The notes beneath the pieces were generated by a model, which did not search any database, was not told where the DNA came from, and worked only from the letters and a program-made list of their open reading frames with translations. A stretch of DNA of 64,000 nucleotides from an uncultured Roseburia sp. (GTDB lineage Bacteria > Bacillota > Clostridia > Lachnospirales > Lachnospiraceae). Each line of letters opens with the position of its first letter. The stretch's first letter is position 1. A program made the translations under genes and the position numbers. Location of the stretch: the NCBI GenBank assembly GCA_947644305.1, contig CANRYS010000007.1:1-64000 (forward strand). Reading direction: 5' to 3'. Of this stretch, positions 7,542-57,645 are shown piece after piece.

Positions 7542-8417
7542 TTGAGAGGATGGCTTGTGGTAAACGGGTTTTTATACACCGGTAAATTTACAGAACTGAC
7601 TGAAATGTTTGTGGCGGCGGCAGAAAGAAAAGGGATCTACCTGGAGGTGAGATCCAATCGTGAGATTTATACTGGAATCTTTGAGTTGGATCATGCTGTT
7701 CCAAGACCAGATTTCGTGTTGTTCTGGGATAAGGATGTGATCCTGGCCAGATATCTGGAGTTATCGGGAATTCCAGTGTACAACAGCAGCCGTTCCATTG
7801 AAGTGTGCGATGACAAAAGAAAAACGTATCTCTCCTTGTTAGAAGCAGGGATTCCGATCCCCAGAACGATCTCTGGCCCCATGACCTATGAAAATGTGGG
7901 ATTTCCGTCCTTGGATTTTGTGGACAGCCTGGAAGGCGGGCTGGGATATCCCCTAATCGTCAAGGAAGCTTTTGGCTCCTTTGGGGAACAGGTCTATATG
8001 GCGGAGAACCGTGAGGAGCTGGAGCGTATCCTGAAAGCCATCGAAAGGAAGCCTTTTCTTCTCCAGCAGTATATTTCTTCCAGTCGCGGTCAGGATGTGC
8101 GGCTACAGGTAGTGGGAGATCAGGTGGTAGCGGCGATGCGGCGTTATTCAGACAATGATTTTCGCGCTAACATCACCAGTGGAGGCCATATGGAAGGGTA
8201 TGAACCAGAGGAGGCAGCCTGCCTTTTGGCAACCCGGGCAGCTCGGGCGGTGGGCTGTGACTTTGCGGGAGTGGATCTTTTGTTTACAGAAGGTGGTTTC
8301 CTGGTGTGTGAGGTAAACTCCAATGCCCATTTTAAAAATCTCTATGAATGCACCGGAATAAATACGGCGGACTATATTATGGAGTATATCTCTTCCGGGC
8401 CGCTGAAAATGGCCTGA
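7542..8417 (+). CDS. ATP-grasp ligase, RimK-like (first of a tandem pair)
   Basis: Predicted ATP-dependent ligase that activates a carboxylate as an acyl phosphate and joins it to an amine. About 291 residues. Seen: preATP-grasp N-domain, CDDKRKTYLSLLEAGIPIPRT, nucleotide-binding YPLIVKEAFGSFGEQVYM, hinge LLQQYI, RGQDVRLQVVGDQVVAAMRR, and metal-binding VDLLFTEGGFLVCEVNSNAHF (E and N). TTG 7542 is preferred because GGGAGG sits 6 bases upstream; ATG 7524, overlapping the ftsK stop as ATGA, is the alternative. Relatives add glutamate to ribosomal protein S6, coenzyme F420 or lysine-carrier proteins; no precursor peptide is visible, so the substrate is unknown. Confidence 0.85.
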   Translation: MRGWLVVNGFLYTGKFTELTEMFVAAAERKGIYLEVRSNREIYTGIFELDHAVPRPDFVLFWDKDVILARYLELSGIPVYNSSRSIEVCDDKRKTYLSLLEAGIPIPRTISGPMTYENVGFPSLDFVDSLEGGLGYPLIVKEAFGSFGEQVYMAENREELERILKAIERKPFLLQQYISSSRGQDVRLQVVGDQVVAAMRRYSDNDFRANITSGGHMEGYEPEEAACLLATRAARAVGCDFAGVDLLFTEGGFLVCEVNSNAHFKNLYECTGINTADYIMEYISSGPLKMA

Positions 8418-47865: not shown

Positions 47866-49083
47866 ATGGAATACGAACAGAATTTGTTGTTTACTCCGGA
47901 GGGAGTCCGGGATATATATGGTGTAGAATGTGAGAAAAGAGAGTGGGTGGAAGCCGAGATTCATAAGATCATGAAGCTCTATGGATTTCAAGATATCCTC
48001 ACCCCGACTTTCGAGTTTTTTGATATCTTCAACCGGGAGCGGGGGACCGTGGAATCAAAGGAAATGTTCAAATTCTTTGACCAGTATAACAATACTCTGG
48101 CGCTGCGGCCGGATATCACGCCATCCATCGCAAGGTGTGTGGCAAAATATTATTCGGCAGAAGAGATGCCCATCCGTCTTTCCTATTCGGGAAATACTTT
48201 CATCCATCGACGGGGGTATCAGGGAAAGCTCTCGGAGATCGCCCAGATCGGCGCCGAGCTTATGAATGATTCTAGTTCCGATGCGGATGCTGAGATGATC
48301 GCCATGACGGTGGAATGTCTTGCCAGATCCGGCTTGAAGGAGTTTAAGATCGATGTGGGACATGCGGGATTTATCCGTGGTCTGATGGAAGAGTCAGGTT
48401 TTTCCGCTGAAGAGATTCAGGAATATAAACGTCTTATCGCCAATAAGAACAGTTTTGGCGTGGAGGAGATGATCGAGGAAAAAGATCTTTCTTCCCGGTT
48501 AAAGGAACTACTGATCCGGCTTCCAGATCTCTTTGGCGCAGAAGAGACACTGGCCTATGCCAGGGAGCGGGTCAGCCATCCGCTGGCGCTGGAGGCGTTG
48601 CAGCGTCTGGAGACCGTCCAGGAGATTCTTGGAATCTACGGGCTGGAAGAGAGTGTGACCTTTGACCTGGGAATGCTCAGTCATTACGATTATTATACAG
48701 GTATTATTTTTAAAGCATATACATATGGAACGGGAGAGGCGATCGTCACCGGGGGACGTTATGACAGGCTAATCGAGCAGTTTGGCAAAAAGTCGCCGGC
48801 GGTAGGACTTGCTATTGTCTTAGACCAGCTTATGAACGCCCTCGCCAGTCAGAACGCAGAGATCCCCACAGAGACGGACGGCATCCTGATCCTGTACCGT
48901 TCCGCCAGCCGCAAAGAGGCGGTTCATCTGGGAAACCGTTACCGGAATGAGGGACGCCGAGTGATGCTGATGCGCAGGGATGTGGAGACAGAGCTGGATG
49001 TATACCGCGGCTATGCGTCAGAGAATCAGATTTCTAGCATTGTCTATGTGGAAGACGACCAGACAACAACGATCGATCTATGA
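47866..49083 (+). CDS. hisZ: ATP phosphoribosyltransferase regulatory subunit
   Basis: Histidyl-tRNA-synthetase paralogue that activates short-form HisG and gives histidine feedback. 405 residues. Class II fold signs: LLFTPEGVRDIYGVECEKRE near 5-24, TPTFEF, LALRPDITPSIARCVA near 76-91, RLSYSGNTFIHRRGYQGKLSEIAQIGAEL, LGMLSHYDYYTGIIFKAYTYG near 265 and GGRYDRL. The tRNA-charging parts are lost. AGGAAGGG precedes the ATG. Confidence 0.95.
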   Translation: MEYEQNLLFTPEGVRDIYGVECEKREWVEAEIHKIMKLYGFQDILTPTFEFFDIFNRERGTVESKEMFKFFDQYNNTLALRPDITPSIARCVAKYYSAEEMPIRLSYSGNTFIHRRGYQGKLSEIAQIGAELMNDSSSDADAEMIAMTVECLARSGLKEFKIDVGHAGFIRGLMEESGFSAEEIQEYKRLIANKNSFGVEEMIEEKDLSSRLKELLIRLPDLFGAEETLAYARERVSHPLALEALQRLETVQEILGIYGLEESVTFDLGMLSHYDYYTGIIFKAYTYGTGEAIVTGGRYDRLIEQFGKKSPAVGLAIVLDQLMNALASQNAEIPTETDGILILYRSASRKEAVHLGNRYRNEGRRVMLMRRDVETELDVYRGYASENQISSIVYVEDDQTTTIDL

Positions 49084-49105
49084 CAGATTCAGGATGGAGG
49101 AAGGA

Positions 49106-49747
49106 ATGAAATATTTAACGATTGCACTGGCAAAGGGAAGACTTGCTAAGCAGACACTGGCATTACTGGAGCAGACGGGCATCACCTGTGAGGAGATGAA
49201 GGACAAGGATACGAGAAAGCTGATCTTTGTCAATGAGGAGTTGGGACTGAAATTTTTCCTCTCCAAGACTTCGGATGTGCCTACATATGTAGAATACGGC
49301 GCTGCGGATATCGGAGTGGTGGGAAGCGATACCATTCTGGAAGAGGGACGTAAGATTCTGGAGGTTCTGGATCTGGGACTTGGAAAATGCCGTATGTGTG
49401 TGGCAGGTCCGGCATCCGCCAGAGAACTTTTGAAAAAAAATGAGATCATCCGGGTGGCTTCCAAATATCCGAAGATCGCCAAGGATTATTTTTATAATAA
49501 AAAACATCAGACCGTGGAGATCGTGAAGCTGAATGGTTCTGTGGAACTGGCGCCCATTGTTGGACTCTCCGAGGTGATCGTAGATATCGTGGAGACCGGG
49601 TCTACCCTGAAGGAAAACGGTCTGGAGGTATTGGAGGAGATCTGTCCGCTGTCGGCGAGAGTGGTTGTCAATGAGGCGAGCATGAAGATGCAGCGGGAAC
49701 GGATCACAAAGATCGTAAAAGATTTAAAGCAGGCATTGAACGAATAG
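49106..49747 (+). CDS. hisG: ATP phosphoribosyltransferase, short form
   Basis: First step of histidine synthesis. 213 residues from MKYLTIALAKGRLAKQTL, behind GGAGGAAGG; the short form lacks the regulatory C-terminal domain and needs HisZ, which is encoded just upstream. Motifs: VPTYVEYGAADIGVVGSDTILEE near 57-79, DLGLGKCRMCVAGP, VASKYPKIAKDYF, LNGSVELAPIVGLSEVIVDIVETGSTLKENGLEVLE. The upstream extension of the frame into hisZ has no support. Confidence 0.97.
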   Translation: MKYLTIALAKGRLAKQTLALLEQTGITCEEMKDKDTRKLIFVNEELGLKFFLSKTSDVPTYVEYGAADIGVVGSDTILEEGRKILEVLDLGLGKCRMCVAGPASARELLKKNEIIRVASKYPKIAKDYFYNKKHQTVEIVKLNGSVELAPIVGLSEVIVDIVETGSTLKENGLEVLEEICPLSARVVVNEASMKMQRERITKIVKDLKQALNE

Positions 49748-49760
49748 AAAGGAGAGGGCG

Positions 49761-51056
49761 ATGATGAGACGGATCAGACTGGACGAGGCATCGATGGAAA
49801 ATATTCTGGAAAGTCTGCTGAAACGCAGTCCGAACCAGTATGACACCTATCAGGATACGGTAAATGAGATTTTGAACGAGGTAAAGGAAAAGGGAGATGA
49901 AGCCCTGTTCCGTTATACAAAGAAATTTGATAAAGCTGAGATCACGCCAGACAATATTCAGGTGACCGAAGCAGAGATCCAGGAGGCATATACGCAGGTG
50001 GAGGCTTCTCTGGTGGAGGTCATGAAAAAATCGCTGGCAAACATCCAGGATTTTCATAAAAAACAGCTTCGCAACAGTTGGATTGAGACGCGAGAGGACG
50101 GTGTGGTCCTGGGACAGCGCATGACGCCTTTAGAGAGCGTTGGTGTATATGTGCCCGGGGGAAAAGCGGCATATCCTTCCAGCGTGCTTATGAACATCAT
50201 TCCTGCCCAGGTGGCGGGAGTGGAGCGTATCGTTATGGTGACGCCTCCGGGAGCGGATGGAAAGGTAAATCCTGCCACATTGGTCGCGGCAGACTTAGCA
50301 GGAGCCACAGAGGTATACAAAGTGGGAGGGGCGCAGGCAGTGGCTGCCCTTGCCTATGGGACCGCCTCCATCAAAAAGGTGGCAAAGATCTGCGGACCGG
50401 GAAATATATTTGTGGCGTTGGCGAAAAAGACGGTGTATGGACATGTGAGCATTGATTCCATCGCAGGTCCCAGTGAGATCCTCGTGCTGGCAGATGAGAC
50501 AGCGAATCCCCGTTATGTGGCGGCGGATCTTTTGTCCCAGGCAGAACACGACGAGCTGGCTTCTGCCATCCTGGTGACCACCAGTGAGGAGCTGGCAGTG
50601 AAGGTGGAAGAAGAGATTGAGGAATTTTTGAAGACCTTGAGCCGAGCGGATATCATCCGCAAGTCTCTGGAGAATTATGGATATCTTTTGGTGGCGGATT
50701 CCATGTCCGACGCCATCCGGGCGGCCAACGAGATCGCTTCAGAGCACCTTGAGATCCTGACGAAGAATCCTTTTGATACGATGACAAGGATAAAAAATGC
50801 TGGGGCGATCTTCCTCGGCGAATACAGCAGTGAACCCCTGGGAGACTATTTTGCGGGGCCGAATCATGTGCTTCCCACCAATGGCACCGCCAAGTTTTTC
50901 TCACCGCTGAATGTAGATGATTTTATAAAAAAATCCAGTCTGATCTCTTATTCCAAAGAGGCGCTGGAGCCGATCCACAAAGACATCATTCAATTTGCCA
51001 ATGCGGAGCAGCTTACGGCACATGCCAATTCCATTGCCGTGCGCTTTGAGGATTGA
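49761..51056 (+). CDS. hisD: histidinol dehydrogenase
   Basis: Zinc enzyme oxidising histidinol to histidine in two steps. 431 residues. Motifs: PLESVGVYVPGGKAAYPSSVLMNIIPAQVAGV near 120-150, KVGGAQAVAALAYGT, KICGPGNIFVALAKK, GPSEILVLAD near 238, zinc-region LLSQAEHDELASAILVT near 262, catalytic SEHLEILT near 325, and YFAGPNHVLPT near 362. Two ATGs in tandem follow GGAGAGGG. The remaining his genes do not follow: the operon ends here at a repeat-built terminator. Confidence 0.97.
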   Translation: MMRRIRLDEASMENILESLLKRSPNQYDTYQDTVNEILNEVKEKGDEALFRYTKKFDKAEITPDNIQVTEAEIQEAYTQVEASLVEVMKKSLANIQDFHKKQLRNSWIETREDGVVLGQRMTPLESVGVYVPGGKAAYPSSVLMNIIPAQVAGVERIVMVTPPGADGKVNPATLVAADLAGATEVYKVGGAQAVAALAYGTASIKKVAKICGPGNIFVALAKKTVYGHVSIDSIAGPSEILVLADETANPRYVAADLLSQAEHDELASAILVTTSEELAVKVEEEIEEFLKTLSRADIIRKSLENYGYLLVADSMSDAIRAANEIASEHLEILTKNPFDTMTRIKNAGAIFLGEYSSEPLGDYFAGPNHVLPTNGTAKFFSPLNVDDFIKKSSLISYSKEALEPIHKDIIQFANAEQLTAHANSIAVRFED

Positions 51057-51062
51057 GAGAGA

Positions 51063-51259
51063 TTGCCTGTCCGCTTAGCCGCTTGATGGGGCTTATCTAC
51101 AAAAAAGCCGATTGCTTCGTGCTGACGCACTCCCGCAATCGCCGCCGGTATTCGCATTCCGGCTGGCTCAGCCTCCATGCTCATACCGTTTTGCCCATCA
51201 AATGTCTAAGCGTTCATGCAAGTTTCCTTGCCTGTCCGCTTAGCCGCTTGATGGGGCTT
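51063..51259 (+). repeat. 32-bp direct repeats flanking a hairpin-rich 133-bp segment
   Basis: A 32-bp sequence beginning TTGCCTGTCCGCTTAG and ending GATGGGGCTT occurs exactly at 51063-51094 and 51228-51259. Between the copies are GATTGC..GCAATC (with inner GTGC/GCAC), GCCGG..CCGGC, and a degraded inverted copy of the repeat at about 51193-51222. The second copy with that inverted copy forms the hisD terminator. No coding sense is apparent. Confidence 0.85.
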
Positions 51260-51263
51260 TTTT
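51194..51263 (+). terminator. terminator of hisD built from the repeat
   Basis: CCCATCAA (51194-51201) pairs with TTGATGGG (51248-51255), CTAAGCG (51206-51212) with CGCTTAG (51237-51243), and GCAAG (51218-51222) with CTTGC (51227-51231). Symmetric 4x4 and 5x5 internal loops separate the helices, with loop TTTC, then TTTTTT. It lies between convergent hisD and tetR. Confidence 0.75.
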
Positions 51264-51269
51264 CGTATC

Positions 51270-51884
51270 TTAAGACATAAGAAAATTAAGGGCACCGATA
51301 GGATTTTCGGTGCCCTTTTCCAATAGGCAGATCAATCCCCGGATCGTCTCCGCCGTCTCTTCCTCGGTAGAAGGGACGATGGTGTTATCCAATTTTACCG
51401 TTAAGATAATCAATACGATTTCAGCCAGGGCGGCGGGATGATCAAAGGTGATATCTCCAGTTTCTATGCCCTGCTGAATAATAGATGTCAGCACTGGTTT
51501 TAATTCTGTCACCATATAATTCAGGTATTTTTGGTGAAGGAATGCCCACTCCGTGCCAGTTTCCAGCGCGGAGACCGAGGCATCCTGTCGGATAAATTCT
51601 GCGGAAGAGCTGCGGCATGCCTGAAAAAGCATTGCCATCCGCGTGAATGGGGGAATTTCCTTCTGGGTGGCGAGATTTTTTGCCAGCTCCAGAGGCTTTT
51701 TATAATTACGTTCGATCAGTGCATCTAAAATCTCTTCCTTCGAAGAAAAATAATAATATATACTTCCCTTTCCAATTCCGGCGGCTTGGGCGATCTCACG
51801 GACCGTGATCGCCTGCATGTCCCTGCTGGTCAGTAATTCTTCCAGTGCATCCAATATTTTCTCATATTTCATAGGTTCTGGCAT
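51270..51884 (-). CDS. TetR-family transcriptional regulator
   Basis: Ligand-responsive repressor. About 204 residues from MPEPMKYEKILDALEELL; CGGAGG lies 9 bases before this ATG, and another in-frame ATG two codons upstream is too close. N-terminal helix-turn-helix ITVREIAQAAGIGKGSIYYYFSSKEEILDALIE (about 26-58), then a ligand-binding helical domain without close similarity recognised. Divergent from the SCP2/condensation cluster; two identical 20-bp operator-like sites lie between, so it very likely controls that cluster and perhaps itself. Confidence 0.92.
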   Translation of the reverse strand: MPEPMKYEKILDALEELLTSRDMQAITVREIAQAAGIGKGSIYYYFSSKEEILDALIERNYKKPLELAKNLATQKEIPPFTRMAMLFQACRSSSAEFIRQDASVSALETGTEWAFLHQKYLNYMVTELKPVLTSIIQQGIETGDITFDHPAALAEIVLIILTVKLDNTIVPSTEEETAETIRGLICLLEKGTENPIGALNFLMS

Positions 51885-52016
51885 GGTCATTTTCCTCCGA
51901 TTATTATCTGATACACCAAAGTATATCATATTTCTGAACGAAATGTTAGTTTTATGGCGCTAATTTATATATGTTTTTGTAGAGTGGAAAATTTTGTAAA
52001 TCTTGGAAAGTGAGAG

Positions 52017-52045
52017 TTGACCACTGGTCGAAAAAGTGTTATTGT
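52017..52045 (+). promoter_or_regulatory. promoter and operator 1 of the SCP2/condensation cluster
   Basis: TTGACC (52017-52022), 17-base spacer, TATTGT (52040-52045). The -35 begins the first copy of the 20-bp site TTGACCACTGGTCGAAAAAG (52017-52036), whose core GACCA-C-TGGTC is a palindrome. Binding by the TetR protein would block polymerase. Confidence 0.75.
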
Positions 52046-52060
52046 AAGCTTGTAATAAAA

Positions 52061-52080
52061 TTGACCACTGGTCGAAAAAG
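52061..52080 (+). promoter_or_regulatory. operator 2, exact copy of the 20-bp site
   Basis: Identical to 52017-52036, 44 bases downstream, between the expected transcription start and the ribosome site (AAAGG). Same-orientation exact copies at about four helical turns suggest cooperative binding of two TetR dimers. Confidence 0.8.
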
Positions 52081-52098
52081 AAAGGAAAATGGTGAAAA

Positions 52099-52428
52099 AT
52101 GACCTATGCAGATTTTTTTGCTCTGGTAAAGGAGCAGTTTATGGGAGCCGATGTCAGTGATGTCCAAGAACATTTAGCCTATCAGTTCAATATCACGGGA
52201 GAGGCGGAAGGAATTTTTTATGTTGAGGTAAAAGAAGGACAGTTGTATGTAGAGCCCTATGAGTATTTTGATCGGGATGCTATGTTTACAGCGAGCGCAG
52301 AAACACTTATGAAGATCGCAGAAGGAAAGCTGGATCCGGTGTTGGCATTTACCCTGCAAAAATTAAAGGTGGAGGGAAATATTGATAAGGCGCTCAAATT
52401 AAAGGATTTGATCAACAGCAAGCGCTGA
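52099..52428 (+). CDS. SCP2 sterol-binding domain protein
   Basis: Small soluble carrier of hydrophobic ligands, 109 residues, one SCP2 domain over the full length. Typical features: alternating strands NITGEAEGIFYVEVKEGQLYVEP, then the helix-rich end DAMFTASAETLMKIAEGKLDPVLAFTLQKLKVEGNIDKALKLKDLI, which is a strong match to bacterial SCP2 proteins. In this operon it may hold a fatty or isoprenoid substrate for the ligase or hydrolase. First gene of the TetR-controlled unit. Confidence 0.9.
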   Translation: MTYADFFALVKEQFMGADVSDVQEHLAYQFNITGEAEGIFYVEVKEGQLYVEPYEYFDRDAMFTASAETLMKIAEGKLDPVLAFTLQKLKVEGNIDKALKLKDLINSKR

Positions 52429-52443
52429 TTCCGGAGGTGAAGG

Positions 52444-53400
52444 ATGATGGGGATTGGAAGAGGAATCCTGGCAGCGATTGGGGGACTCACGATCGCAGAG
52501 CTGGCGGGATCTGTCTATATGTACCGCCGGACGATGATACGTTGTCCGGGAAAGGCAAATAATAAGAGGACCATCAAAATGTCGGGAACCGACTGGGATC
52601 GCTATATGCCGGTGATCGAAGAGCGAAAGGAGCGGTTTCTGGCCCATAACAGGGAAGACGTATATCTGGATTCGGAAGACAGTTTGAGGCTTCATGCCAC
52701 TTATTTTCCTGAGGGGGACCAGAAGAAAGTGGTGATCTGTTTTCACGGCTACACCAGTCAGGGGATGAAAGACTATATTGCTCTTTCGGATTTTTATCTG
52801 AAAAGAGGGTTCAGTATGCTTTTGGTGGATGCCAGAGCCCATGGTGACAGCGAGGGCAAATACATAGGGTTTGGATGTCTGGACCGGCGGGACGCCTTAT
52901 TGTGGATCCAGTGGGTGTTAGGCCGCTGCGGCAGGAATACGGATATACTGCTTCACGGAATTTCCATGGGAGGGGCTACGGTGCTGATGTGTACTGGTTT
53001 GGAACTGCCGGAGCAGGTGAGGGGCGTGGTCTCGGATTGTGCATTTACCTCACCGAAGGAAGTTTTTTCCCATGTGCTGCGTTCCATGTATCATATGCCG
53101 GCATTTCCGATGATGGGGATTTCCGATTGGCTCAACCGCCGGCTGGCGGGATATGGTCTGGATGAGTGCAATGCGGCCAGAGAGGTGAAAAAGGCTAAGA
53201 TCCCGGCTCTGCTCATCCACGGCTCCGGGGATGGGTTTGTTCCTAGATGGATGTGCGACAAGATCTTTGAACATTATGGGGCGGCGAAGAGAAAGCTGGT
53301 TATTGAAGGAGCGGCTCATGCTGAAAGTTATTTTAAGGACATGAAGCAATATGAGAGCACATTGGATGAGTGGCTGGAACAGGAATGGAGGAGAGTATGA
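52444..53400 (+). CDS. alpha/beta hydrolase
   Basis: Predicted serine esterase/acyl hydrolase of the alpha/beta fold. 318 residues with an N-terminal hydrophobic anchor (about 3-22). Oxyanion region CFHGYTSQGMKDY near 98-110; nucleophile elbow GISMGGATVL (G-x-S-x-G) near 174-183; acid in GSGDGFVP near 262-270; His in GAAHAESYF near 290. In a condensation/carrier cluster it could release or edit the acyl product. The stop overlaps the next ATG (ATGA), so translation is coupled. Confidence 0.9.
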   Translation: MMGIGRGILAAIGGLTIAELAGSVYMYRRTMIRCPGKANNKRTIKMSGTDWDRYMPVIEERKERFLAHNREDVYLDSEDSLRLHATYFPEGDQKKVVICFHGYTSQGMKDYIALSDFYLKRGFSMLLVDARAHGDSEGKYIGFGCLDRRDALLWIQWVLGRCGRNTDILLHGISMGGATVLMCTGLELPEQVRGVVSDCAFTSPKEVFSHVLRSMYHMPAFPMMGISDWLNRRLAGYGLDECNAAREVKKAKIPALLIHGSGDGFVPRWMCDKIFEHYGAAKRKLVIEGAAHAESYFKDMKQYESTLDEWLEQEWRRV

Positions 53401-54800
53401 GAAAGACGAGAAAAGGATATCCGGTATATCCGCTGACGGTGGCGCAGAAATTCCATTTTTATTATATGGATTTTTGTCCCAAAAAGGAAGTTCTGAATAT
53501 TGGAACCAGTCTGACCATCGGGGCAGATCTGGATTTTGACGTGCTGAGAAAGGCGATCGGGGAGGCATATGAACGCTGTGAATGTCTGAAGGTTCATTTT
53601 TTTAAGGAAAAGGATGGCACATGGTATCAGTATGTGTGCCAGGAGGCTGTGATGGAGATCGGTTCAGAAGATTTTTCCGAAAAGACCATGGAAGAGGCAG
53701 AGGCGGTGCTGCAGAGCTGGACACAGGTTCCCTTTACCAAAGAAGATGCGCCCATGAGCCGTATCATTATGATCCGGATGCCCGACGGATTTCAGGGGGT
53801 ATATTTTCTGGTGGATCACCGCATCATGGATGCCCAGTCCATGATCTGTTTTTTGAAAGATATCATTGAGATCTATTGTCATAATGTGTATGAGGGGGTT
53901 GCCTATCCCAAGGAGATGGCTTCTTATATCGAACAGGTTAAGAAAGATCTCGCCTATGAGGCGGATTCAAAGGCCAAACAGAAGGACGAGGCATTTTTCC
54001 ATCAATTAATCGAAGCATCGGAGCCGATCTATAACGGCATCGATGGTCCGGGACGATTGGAGGCAGAGAGAAAAAACTCTGGAAATCCAGATGCCAGGGC
54101 GGCAGTGAACGTATCGGACTCTGTGGATTCGGCGCTGGATGTATTTCATCTGGAGGAAGAACCCACCAGACGTCTTATGGATTTTTGTGAGACCTATCAT
54201 GTATCCCTGGTCTGCCTTCTTATGATGGGACTGCGGACTTATTTTCAGAAAATGAACCATAATGACGATGTGTCTATTACGACAACCATCGCCAGAAGGG
54301 GAACCCTTAAAGAGAAGAAGAGTGGTGGTACGAGGATTCATTCATTTCCGTTTCGCACCATTATTTCAGAGGACAGAACTTTTCTGGAGGGAATTTATGA
54401 GATCCGTGATCGCCAAAATGAATATTTCCGCCATGCGAACTACGATCCGGTGGCATATTTTGCCCATCAGAGCAAGGCGTGGAACAAGGCGCCAGGGCGG
54501 GTGTATGAACCGATGTCCCTGACCTACCAGCCGATGTCCATGCGGGATAAAGAGTTAGAAAAGCTGGGGGATATCAAGTATAAGACCAAATGGTATCCCA
54601 ATGGCGCTACGACCCAGGCGATGTATCTCACGGTTATGCACCGTCCAGAGGACAATGGACTAGATTTTAGTTTTGAACATCAGGTGAAGGCAGTTAGTCG
54701 TAAGCAGTTGGAATATCTGTATTATTATCTGTGCAGGATCATGTTTAAGGGCGCAGAAAACCCAAACCTTACGATTGGTGAGATCATAAAACTGGTGTAG
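53397..54800 (+). CDS. stand-alone condensation-domain-like acyltransferase
   Basis: 467 residues resembling a single condensation (C) domain of the NRPS / acyltransferase superfamily. N-terminal YPLTVAQKFHFYYMD-like start, catalytic-type H-x3-D in FLVDHRIMDAQSM near 145-157 (HHxxxDG of typical C domains, here DHRIMDA: second His and Asp kept, first His is Asp and Gly is Ala). C-terminal block MYLTVMHRPEDNGLDFSFEHQVKAVSRKQLEYLYYYLCRIM. Could form an amide or ester between a carrier-bound acyl group and a small acceptor. The carrier-protein gene follows 30 bases later. Recognised at superfamily level only. Confidence 0.78.
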   Translation: MRKTRKGYPVYPLTVAQKFHFYYMDFCPKKEVLNIGTSLTIGADLDFDVLRKAIGEAYERCECLKVHFFKEKDGTWYQYVCQEAVMEIGSEDFSEKTMEEAEAVLQSWTQVPFTKEDAPMSRIIMIRMPDGFQGVYFLVDHRIMDAQSMICFLKDIIEIYCHNVYEGVAYPKEMASYIEQVKKDLAYEADSKAKQKDEAFFHQLIEASEPIYNGIDGPGRLEAERKNSGNPDARAAVNVSDSVDSALDVFHLEEEPTRRLMDFCETYHVSLVCLLMMGLRTYFQKMNHNDDVSITTTIARRGTLKEKKSGGTRIHSFPFRTIISEDRTFLEGIYEIRDRQNEYFRHANYDPVAYFAHQSKAWNKAPGRVYEPMSLTYQPMSMRDKELEKLGDIKYKTKWYPNGATTQAMYLTVMHRPEDNGLDFSFEHQVKAVSRKQLEYLYYYLCRIMFKGAENPNLTIGEIIKLV

Positions 54801-54830
54801 TATTTCTTTGAAATTATAAGGAGGAAGATC

Positions 54831-55058
54831 ATGTTTGAAGAGCTGAAAGAGATAATCTGTAATTATGTAGAGGTAGAGCCGTCGGATATTCATCGGGACT
54901 CCCGGTTTATGGAGGATCTTGGATTTACTTCTTTTGACTTTGTGAGTATGATGGGGGAATTGGAAGAGCAGTATGATATCGAGATCGACCCGGCACAGGC
55001 GGGTTCCATCCGAACGGTACAGGAAGCGGTTGATTATTTGACGGCATTAGTAAAATAA
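54831..55058 (+). CDS. acyl/peptidyl carrier protein
   Basis: 75 residues, one carrier domain. The phosphopantetheine serine is Ser34 in DLGFTSFDFVSMM (the usual LGxDSLxxVEL motif with Phe after the Ser). Acidic, helical; AAGGAGGAAG precedes the ATG. Dedicated carrier for the neighbouring condensation-like protein and AMP ligase. No phosphopantetheinyl transferase is in the window. This is the only carrier protein gene seen here, and it is not beside plsX. Confidence 0.93.
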   Translation: MFEELKEIICNYVEVEPSDIHRDSRFMEDLGFTSFDFVSMMGELEEQYDIEIDPAQAGSIRTVQEAVDYLTALVK

Positions 55059-55082
55059 TTGTTTCAGATACAGGGAGGTATA

Positions 55083-55233
55083 GTTTGAAAAATCACGCTT
55101 ATGCCAAAGAACTAAAGTTCTTGGATTTTTCAAACGGCTATTTGTTTCTGAGCGAAAGCAAATAGCTTTGTTCCGACACGAGAAACTCTTCGAGCTTTCT
55201 CGTGCGGTTCTTCGCGATAAATCGCTCAGAAAT
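55083..55233. repeat. palindrome-rich 151-bp segment between carrier and ligase genes
   Basis: Exact inverted repeats crowd this segment: TTGAAAAATC/GATTTTTCAA with inner AAGAAC/GTTCTT, GCTATTTG/CAAATAGC, CACGAGAAA/TTTCTCGTG, GCGA/TCGC, and the spanning pair TTTCTGAGCGA (about 55145) with TCGCTCAGAAA (about 55221). It is flanked by the direct repeat GAGGTATA (55075-55082 and 55234-55241). The left copy is part of a good ribosome site (GGGAGG) now 160 bases from the ligase gene. An inserted small mobile repeat is a fair reading. Confidence 0.7.
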
Positions 55234-55243
55234 GAGGTATACA

Positions 55244-56749
55244 ATGAGCAATTCGACAATTTGGGAAATACTTGATACAGCAGACAAAAAATACGGTTCA
55301 GAAGAGGCAGTCCGTTATCGGGTATCAAAAGATGGGATCGAGGCAAAGACCTATGCCCAGTTAAAACAGGACAGCGATCATTTTTCTTGTGTCCTGAGAG
55401 AACTGGGGGAGCTGGGAAACCATATTGCCATAACGGGTATGACTTCTTATACGTGGATCACCGCGTTTCTCGGTGTGACAGGAAGCGGATGTGTGGCGGT
55501 TCCCCTGGATGTCTCTCTGCCGGCGGAGGAAATGTGTGAACTGATCCACCGATCCGATGCCACGGTGCTGGTACTGGATGAAGTCCGCAGTGATGTAGGC
55601 ACCATGGTGCGGGAGTGCTGTCCGAAGATCCGTTATATTCTCTCTATGCAGAAAGAAAAGGCAGAGGGAGGGATGGAGTCTTTCTGGGAACTGGTGAATG
55701 CCCAGAAAGGGGGAGTCGACCATCGCCCGAAACCGGAGGATTTATGTACCATTATGTTTACATCAGGAACCACAGGAAAGAGTAAAGGCGTTATGCTCAC
55801 CCAGCGTAACATAGCTGAGAATGCTACCTGTCTGGATATGAAATTTCCAGAGCGCACAGTTATTTTATCGGTACTTCCTATTCATCACGCCTATTGTCTC
55901 AGTATGGATATCATAAAAGGAATATCCCTGGGAAGTGTGATCTGTATCAACGACTCTCTGATGCACATGGCAAAGAATATGAAGATCTTCCAGCCGGACA
56001 TGATCCTAATGGTGCCGCTGATGATCGAGACACTGGCAAAAAAGCTGGAGGCGGCAGAGGGACTGCCCCCAGAGGCAGTAAGACAGCAGGTGTTCGGAGA
56101 AAACCTACATACGATCTGCAGTGGCGGCGCCTATCTGAATCCAGACTATATTGATCTGTTTGAAGGGTATGGTATCCGCATCCAGCAGGGTTATGGGATG
56201 ACGGAGTGCGCCCCAGTCATAAGCACCAATCTCAGTTGGAATATCCGCAAGGATTCTGTGGGACAGCTTATGCCGAACTGTGAGGCAAAGGTGGTGGAAC
56301 ATGAATTGTGGATTCGGGGAAGTAGTGTGATGGCAGGGTATTACAAAATGCCGAAGGAAACTGCTGAGACCTTGGAAAATGGCTGGTTAAAGACCGGGGA
56401 TCTGGGATATGTGGATGAGGACGGCTTTGTCTATCTCACTGGAAGGAAAAAGAATCTTATCATCACAAAAAATGGGGAAAATGTATCCCCGGAAGAGCTG
56501 GAGAATAAAATTGGTTCCTCCCGTCTGGTTCAGGAGATCCTTGTCCGAGAATCTGAGGGCGTTATCGAGGCTGAGATTTTTCCAGATCAGGAATATATAA
56601 CAAGAAAACAGGTGGATGACGTGGAGAAAGAGCTGCAGAAGGTAATCGATGAATACAATGCGGGGGCGCCAACCCATAAAAGAATATATCGTCTGAAAAT
56701 CCGGGATCAGGAATTTGAAAAAACTCCGTCAAAGAAGATAAAGAGGTAG
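55244..56749 (+). CDS. AMP-dependent acyl ligase
   Basis: Adenylate-forming enzyme that activates a carboxylic acid and loads it on CoA or a carrier protein. 501 residues from ATG behind GAGG. Core motifs: IMFTSGTTGKSKGVMLTQRN (about 180-199), YGMTECAP near 326, KTGDLGYVDEDGFVYLTGRKKNLIITKNGENVSPEELE near 395-433; C-terminal catalytic Lys in KTPSKKIKR. Looks like the fatty-acyl/acyl-ACP ligase branch rather than an amino-acid A domain, but substrate cannot be read by eye. Last gene of the TetR-controlled cluster; the palindromic segment lies just upstream. Confidence 0.9.
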   Translation: MSNSTIWEILDTADKKYGSEEAVRYRVSKDGIEAKTYAQLKQDSDHFSCVLRELGELGNHIAITGMTSYTWITAFLGVTGSGCVAVPLDVSLPAEEMCELIHRSDATVLVLDEVRSDVGTMVRECCPKIRYILSMQKEKAEGGMESFWELVNAQKGGVDHRPKPEDLCTIMFTSGTTGKSKGVMLTQRNIAENATCLDMKFPERTVILSVLPIHHAYCLSMDIIKGISLGSVICINDSLMHMAKNMKIFQPDMILMVPLMIETLAKKLEAAEGLPPEAVRQQVFGENLHTICSGGAYLNPDYIDLFEGYGIRIQQGYGMTECAPVISTNLSWNIRKDSVGQLMPNCEAKVVEHELWIRGSSVMAGYYKMPKETAETLENGWLKTGDLGYVDEDGFVYLTGRKKNLIITKNGENVSPEELENKIGSSRLVQEILVRESEGVIEAEIFPDQEYITRKQVDDVEKELQKVIDEYNAGAPTHKRIYRLKIRDQEFEKTPSKKIKR

Positions 56750-56892: not shown

Positions 56893-57645
56893 ATGTATCA
56901 AGTAAAGATGCCAGACACGGATAATCGTAAAATAATTGAGCAGAAGGGGAATATTACGATCTATGAATATGAGCAGGATCTCAGCACCAATCCGGGAGCT
57001 GCGATGCAGGCATATTATTCATCCAAAATGAATATTCGCAGACGTCAGGTGATGTTTAATCTGGACGGAGAGCATGACGTGATCGTTCAGGCTGGGGCGA
57101 TGCAGTGGATGGCAGGAAGTGTGAGCAGTGGCACAAACGTAAAAGGAGTTGGTGATCTTGCGAAAAAGTTTGTGAGCTCAAGAGTGACAAATGAATCAAC
57201 AATCAAGCCAAAATACACCGGTAAGGGAATTCTCATGTTAGAGCCAACCTATAAATATCTGATCATTGAAGATGTGGCAGCCTGGAACGGAATGGTTATT
57301 GATGACGGACTGTTTCTCGCCTGTGACGCCAATACAGAAATCAAAACGGTATCCCGTAAATCCTTTTCTTCTGCCATCGCTGGAGGAGAGGGGCTTTTCA
57401 ATTCCTGCCTGATCGGAAGTGGTTTTGCGGTTCTCGAATGCAACTGCCCAAGAGAAGAGCTTGTGGAAGTACAACTTCAGGATGATGAGCTGAAGGTGGA
57501 TGGCAATTTTGCCATCGCCTGGAGCCAGAGCCTTAAGTTTACGGTTGAGCGTTCCACCAAAACGCTGATCGGTTCTGCGGCAAGCGGAGAGGGTCTTGTG
57601 AATGTGTACCGGGGAACTGGAAAGGTCCTGATGGCGCCACTGTAA
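56893..57645 (+). CDS. AIM24 family protein
   Basis: 250-residue beta-rich protein of the AIM24/TIGR00266 family, found in bacteria, archaea and mitochondria; molecular role unclear. Family features: GAMQWMAGSVSSGTNVKG near 70-90, GGEGLFNSCLIGSGFAVLECNCP near 160-182, and the C-terminal EGLVNVYRGTGKVLMAPL. No signal peptide. It may be independent of the cluster before it, from which it is separated by 143 bases. Confidence 0.9.
   Translation: MYQVKMPDTDNRKIIEQKGNITIYEYEQDLSTNPGAAMQAYYSSKMNIRRRQVMFNLDGEHDVIVQAGAMQWMAGSVSSGTNVKGVGDLAKKFVSSRVTNESTIKPKYTGKGILMLEPTYKYLIIEDVAAWNGMVIDDGLFLACDANTEIKTVSRKSFSSAIAGGEGLFNSCLIGSGFAVLECNCPREELVEVQLQDDELKVDGNFAIAWSQSLKFTVERSTKTLIGSAASGEGLVNVYRGTGKVLMAPL

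Follow-up and report, generated by a model that had tools for sequence, protein, structure and literature searches.

A predicted fatty acid amide operon with a putative dedicated TetR repressor and twin operator sites in an uncultured Roseburia sp.

The genes and the core of the operon

The first 64,000 nucleotides of contig CANRYS010000007.1 (assembly GCA_947644305.1), from an uncultured Roseburia sp. of the Lachnospiraceae, constitute the stretch analysed here and are referred to as the window. The window includes five co-directional genes on the + strand (52099-56749), coding for an SCP2-domain protein, an alpha/beta hydrolase, a stand-alone condensation protein (C protein), an acyl carrier protein and an AMP-forming ligase, and a TetR-family gene located upstream and transcribed divergently (Table 1). 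The close spacing of the five genes, one ATGA overlap and the divergent TetR gene had been pointed out in a first-pass annotation made from the letters alone, and were confirmed in the sequence, the overlap lying at the junction between the hydrolase and C genes (53397-53400). All six proteins have significant Pfam matches. We consider it quite probable that the locus is a regulated operon for fatty acid amide (FAA) synthesis of the condensation-carrier-ligase (C-T-A) kind, with a dedicated TetR repressor and a role in the conjugation and detoxification of fatty acids.

Comparison of the C protein with solved structures identified OaaC (PDB 12kh) as the best match, with an E value of 4.2e-108 over residues 10-466, while the next PDB match had an E value of 1.2e-05. 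The two proteins are 38.9% identical over 458 residues and many residues are common to both. The suspicion that the 467-residue protein belongs to the condensation family was thus borne out by its Pfam match (Table 1) and by its similarity to OaaC. According to its published description, OaaC of Coprococcus eutactus was crystallised as a stand-alone condensation domain and, combined in vitro with the cognate ligase and carrier, couples carrier-bound fatty acids to free amines, rendering fatty acid amides; condensation with the free amine itself releases the product and no thioesterase is needed (Singh, Grant and Gulick 2026, PMC13142362). Other characteristics of the window's C protein are those of the FAA clade. 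It is a free-standing single domain outside any modular nonribosomal peptide synthetase (NRPS), and no further Condensation match was found in its genome. A separate carrier and an adenylate-forming ligase are encoded in the same operon in the order C, T, A, as in known CTA systems. Its motif, DHRIMDA, fits the pattern (D/H)HxxxD, after which Ser, Ala and Gly predominate, with reported shares of 42%, 36% and 17%, respectively, at the last position in an FAA set of 127 sequences (PMC13142362).

That the window's system forms amides from carrier-bound fatty acids and small free amines is therefore a well supported prediction by homology, and the first-pass proposal that the ligase would load an acid onto the carrier and the C protein would transfer it to make an acyl amide agrees with the nearly full-length similarity to a protein of reported chemistry. 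As the C protein matches OaaC, the core pathway class is already known, and the hint that the locus might belong to an unrecognised class did not hold: the C-T-A core has been characterised in at least the two reports cited here (PMC13142362, PMC13060934).

Individual residues of the other proteins are also conserved. The phosphopantetheine attachment residue of the carrier, Ser34, is invariant in 18 aligned sequences, and the hydrolase triad (Ser174, Asp263, His292) is invariant across the aligned hydrolase set. Residues 3-31 of the hydrolase form an N-terminal helix, possibly a membrane anchor. The ligase includes the sequence TSGTTGKSKG, which we take to be the ligase motif. The start of the TetR gene (51884 or 51890) was picked on the basis of the ribosome-binding site and the relatives.

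Table 1. Features of the predicted FAA operon and its control region (window coordinates; Pfam E values)
Feature	Position	Strand	Characteristics
TetR-family putative repressor gene	51270-51884	-	about 204 amino acids; alternative start 51890; TetR_N 1.6e-16
Operator 1 (predicted)	52017-52036	+	exact 20-mer; first six bases TTGACC = -35 box
Likely -10 box, TATTGT	52040-52045	+	17 bp past the -35 box; from sequence and conservation
Operator 2 (predicted)	52061-52080	+	second exact copy of the 20-mer; past the promoter and ahead of the SCP2 ribosome-binding site; position conserved
SCP2-domain lipid-binding protein	52099-52428	+	109 amino acids; SCP2 3.3e-15
Alpha/beta hydrolase	52444-53400	+	318 amino acids; Hydrolase_4 3.3e-13
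C (stand-alone condensation protein)	53397-54800	+	467 amino acids; Condensation 5.4e-38
C active-site motif DHRIMDA (DHxxxDA)	53814-53834	+	from sequence comparison
Acyl carrier protein	54831-55058	+	75 amino acids; attachment serine Ser34; PP-binding 4.3e-12
AMP-forming fatty acyl ligase	55244-56749	+	501 amino acids; AMP-binding 5.7e-64, AMP-binding_C_3 1.4e-08

The operator pair and the TetR protein

The 20-mer TTGACCACTGGTCGAAAAAG is found in exactly two copies in the window, 44 bp apart from start to start, as had been described in the first-pass annotation. Both lie in the stretch of about 214 bp (51885-52098) that separates the TetR and SCP2 genes. Its recurrence in related loci shows that the pair is not a product of chance. 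A consensus pair, T(T/C)GACCNNNGGTCGA, with no more than two mismatches per copy and a spacing of 43-45 bp, was present in all 46 TetR-SCP2 intergenic regions inspected (the window plus 45 of 61 loci from named genomes, selected for having both genes); 200 mononucleotide shuffles gave on average 0.005 such regions out of 46. The first six bases of site 1 constitute a good -35 box, being TTGACC in 42 and TTGACT in 4 of the regions, and at the best spacer of 16-19 bp at least four matches to TATAAT were found in 41 of the 46, compared to a mean of 18.4 in shuffled regions. Site 2 starts most often with TCGACC (28 of 46) and lies directly before the SCP2 ribosome-binding site.

A less selected comparison used distinct rows of the C protein tree described below that had enough flank, 9 rows with a short upstream region being omitted. 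With a looser site definition, and counting a TetR gene as of the window's kind only above 90 bits, the pair was found in 59 of 60 loci that have such a gene, a count that takes as pairs the sites of three loci with a diverged TetR and a spacing of 22-24 bp, and in none of the 28 loci that lack it (11 of the window's clade and 17 of the clade of OaaC). An exact 16-mer of the site occurs 12 times in 39 congeneric genomes, two copies each in six genomes, always upstream of the operon. Sites with one mismatch were found at five further places in the window's genome versus 32 for a control pattern read backward, and no wider regulon is therefore claimed.

The locus thus has the arrangement of a TetR repressor-operator pair, a helix-turn-helix protein encoded beside a palindromic site that overlaps a promoter. 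The conservation of the sites and their loss together with the regulator are what a dedicated local repressor would leave; this pattern supports the predicted binding of the TetR protein to the two sites and, through them, the control of the operon proposed in the first-pass annotation. The fold of the protein is ambiguous as to the class of ligand, the tied matches including EthR2, FadR, QacR and butyrolactone receptors. Against the curated NCBIfam model of the Bacillus type FadR (NF053878) the protein scored 39.7 bits, below the cut-off of 200.

Distribution, clades and flanking sequences

The gene order is widespread and not confined to the window, which the first-pass annotation had named as a refuting outcome. 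A scan of named genomes rendered 61 loci, mostly labelled Lachnospiraceae, its genera or other Clostridia, including Claveliimonas bilis, Sellimonas caecigallum and a genome labelled Roseburia hominis; a few labels of metagenome bins deviate, for example Muribaculaceae (L054) and Bacteroides (L076). Among the loci with sufficient flank for the gene in question, TetR was present in 44 of 51, SCP2 in 52 of 55, the hydrolase in 56 of 57, the carrier in 59 of 59 and the ligase in 53 of 54; the complete six-gene set was kept by 37 of 46 loci. Of 392 genomes drawn evenly from the order, 33 have a C protein of the same family (E value of 1e-60 or lower). Exceptions to the arrangement include L045, which has TetR and where the operator, SCP2 and hydrolase were not detected, L092, with no ligase match, and L037, without TetR and SCP2. 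In L090 the C gene is a fragment. The frame before it, upstream of position 8001, resembles a recombinase on visual inspection, suggesting insertion of a mobile element into the C gene.

A tree of 99 C proteins, built by a quick method with the approximate likelihood ratio test (SH-aLRT) as its only support, a midpoint root and no NRPS outgroup, has two sides separated with an SH-aLRT of 100, one including OaaC and 21 others and the other including the window's protein and 76 others. The window's protein is accordingly not a member of the OaaC subgroup. The motif follows the same division: it is DHxxxDS in all 22 members of the OaaC clade, and the window's clade has a final DA in 74 of 77 members and a final DS in the other 3. 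At the 21 OaaC-clade loci, some of whose contigs end early, no SCP2 was detected, and no TetR like that of the window at the threshold of 90 bits. A hydrolase of this family is present in 8 of them, absent from 10 with full flank, and not assessable in 3 where the contig ends early; two OaaC-clade hydrolases that were aligned are 25-27% identical to that of the window. Weak, distant TetR-family matches were seen downstream of OaaC-type operons in six loci (L100, L102, L104, L107, L141 and L153), which may have another kind of regulator.

The window's clade is itself not uniform. Three of its rows (L150, L154 and L155) have a diverged TetR (32-34% identity), sites 22-24 bp apart and no SCP2, and three loci of the same genus whose identity is 57% have the hydrolase (3 of 3) and SCP2 (2 of 3) and neither a TetR of the window's kind nor the sites. 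Among 37 congeners, 11 have an operon of the window type (at least 57% identity), 10 the more distant OaaC type (34-36%), and none has both. This mutual exclusion hints at replacement of one type by the other, with the caveats that closely related genomes do not count as independent cases and that several of the genomes are incomplete.

Histidine biosynthesis genes (hisZ, hisG and hisD, named from their translations) are located directly upstream (47866-51056); of the 43 named loci that have flank, 5 show a match to hisD. An Rfam match to the Clostridiales-1 small RNA (RF01699) covers 51100-51265 on the - strand (98 bits, cut-off 48; E value of 7.7e-21), in the interval separating hisD from the TetR gene. 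The carrier and ligase genes are separated by a repeat element of about 151 bp, at about 55075-55241, flanked by the 8-bp direct duplication GAGGTATA. The element is not present in the five close relatives compared; the stretch has seven further matches in the genome, mostly partial, and shows strong folding (z -4.7). The AIM24 gene that follows the ligase (56893-57645) was rejected as a further member of the operon, as no more than 3 of 50 named loci passing the flank filter have it, and 4 loci in the gene-order survey. Horizontal transfer of the operon is unsupported, its G+C content being 0.46-0.48 versus 0.46-0.52 in the adjoining his genes and intergenic stretch.

Proposed role and relation to known systems

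A mechanism can be proposed in which a likely membrane-anchored esterase or lipase, the hydrolase, would free fatty acids from glycerides or phospholipids, and SCP2 might carry the fatty acid or the product in the cytosol. The ligase would activate the free fatty acid with ATP and then load it onto the phosphopantetheine arm at Ser34 of the carrier, and the C protein would couple the acyl chain with a small free amine, amide bond formation freeing the product. The TetR protein would keep the operon repressed by binding to site 1, which overlaps the -35 box, and to site 2, immediately ahead of SCP2, until released by a fatty acid, an acyl thioester or the amide product. The identity of the inducer and of the amine, like the tasks given here to SCP2 and the hydrolase, is inferred. 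The benefit to the cell would be that long-chain fatty acids lose their toxicity on conversion to amides, and some of these amides could perhaps act on host receptors.

A role in fatty acid tolerance has been proposed for the CTA operon of Blautia wexlerae and other Lachnospiraceae and would fit the operon of the window: long-chain fatty acids are reported to inhibit the growth of Blautia, amines such as dopamine rescue growth with formation of acyl amines, and CTA+ isolates make more acyl amines (PMC13060934). The window's own genome also codes for an oleate hydratase (G000:C1:108654-110150; PF06100, E value of 8.2e-218). Oleate hydratase is a known means of disarming unsaturated fatty acids. 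Matches to it were found in 4 of 37 congeners, in one of them only as fragments, and all four have the window-type operon, a co-occurrence that fits lipid detoxification and is only suggestive because the four carriers are close relatives.

A more specific version of this role is offered tentatively, as slightly more apt to be wrong than right. The locus would be a sense-and-conjugate device, in which TetR senses a free fatty acid or acyl thioester while the esterase, SCP2 and the C-T-A proteins take fatty acids from lipids and turn them into a receptor-active amide.

The function of the hydrolase can be read in other ways. The first-pass annotation had it release the product, a step that is unneeded because in the OaaC system, as reported, amide condensation with the free amine is itself the release step (PMC13142362). 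It is rather doubtful that the hydrolase is instead a proofreading or recycling enzyme that cleaves the amide or a misloaded carrier. Such an enzyme would suit its near-constant presence in the named loci, directly before the C gene, and the thioesterase DcsB is tied among its fold matches; on the other hand, the top folds are the carboxylesterase Pf2001 and monoglyceride lipases, the published OaaC system dispenses with a thioesterase, and in almost half of the OaaC-clade loci no such hydrolase was detected.

It also seems unlikely that the operon serves signalling and not detoxification, the amide being made chiefly for the host or other bacteria and sensed by TetR as an autoinducer. FAA products are reported to act on G protein-coupled receptors including GPR119 (PMC13142362, PMC13060934), a switch would be well served by a dedicated repressor and paired operators, and butyrolactone receptors are among the tied TetR folds. 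Those fold matches are unspecific, however, no exporter is found among the six genes (further flanking genes were not surveyed for one), and fatty acid toxicity with rescue by amines, as described in Blautia, points to detoxification. The production of acyl esters or a lipid-like conjugate, with the DHxxxDA clade accepting an alcohol or some larger molecule and SCP2 presenting this acceptor or the product, would agree with the long branch and the motif unlike that of OaaC, with a weak match to the alcohol acetyltransferase AATase (E value of 0.0044, below its cut-off) and with the detection of SCP2 only in the window's clade, but is very unlikely given the alignment of nearly the whole length of OaaC, with many residues in common, and the frequency of Ala at the motif end in the reported FAA set.

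Taken as a regulated FAA operon, the locus resembles the Oaa cluster of C. eutactus (OaaA, OaaACP and OaaC; PMC13142362) in its nearly full-length C homology, separate carrier and ligase and FAA-type motif, and differs in that its C protein is 39% identical and has a DA and not a DS motif, and in that its clade adds a TetR with twin operators, SCP2 and, nearly always, the hydrolase. The main text of that paper describes three proteins and does not mention SCP2, a hydrolase or TetR. The CTA operon, reported in 36 species, all Lachnospiraceae, has the same three core gene kinds with the carrier between C and ligase; it is presented as a three-gene operon, in contrast to the six-gene module found here, and the terms "TetR", "sterol carrier", "upstream" and "hydrolase" are absent from the main text of the paper (PMC13060934). 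The locus appears to represent a known pathway kind in a regulated variant. Our literature search found no account of the transcriptional control of the pathway, of SCP2 or hydrolase partners, or of the surrounding TetR/operator/SCP2/hydrolase module, with the reservation that it did not cover the founding description of the FAA clusters of gut Clostridia, reportedly that of Chang et al. 2021, which may show flanking genes.

Gut bacterial fatty acid amides can imitate signalling lipids of humans and act on host receptors, and a candidate regulator with a clean, conserved operator is named here, which makes the signal that switches on their microbial synthesis a directly testable question. If the sense-and-conjugate device proves true, it would represent a major form of the gut FAA pathway in Lachnospiraceae, and its twin-operator promoter would set the output of host-active amides in response to dietary fat.

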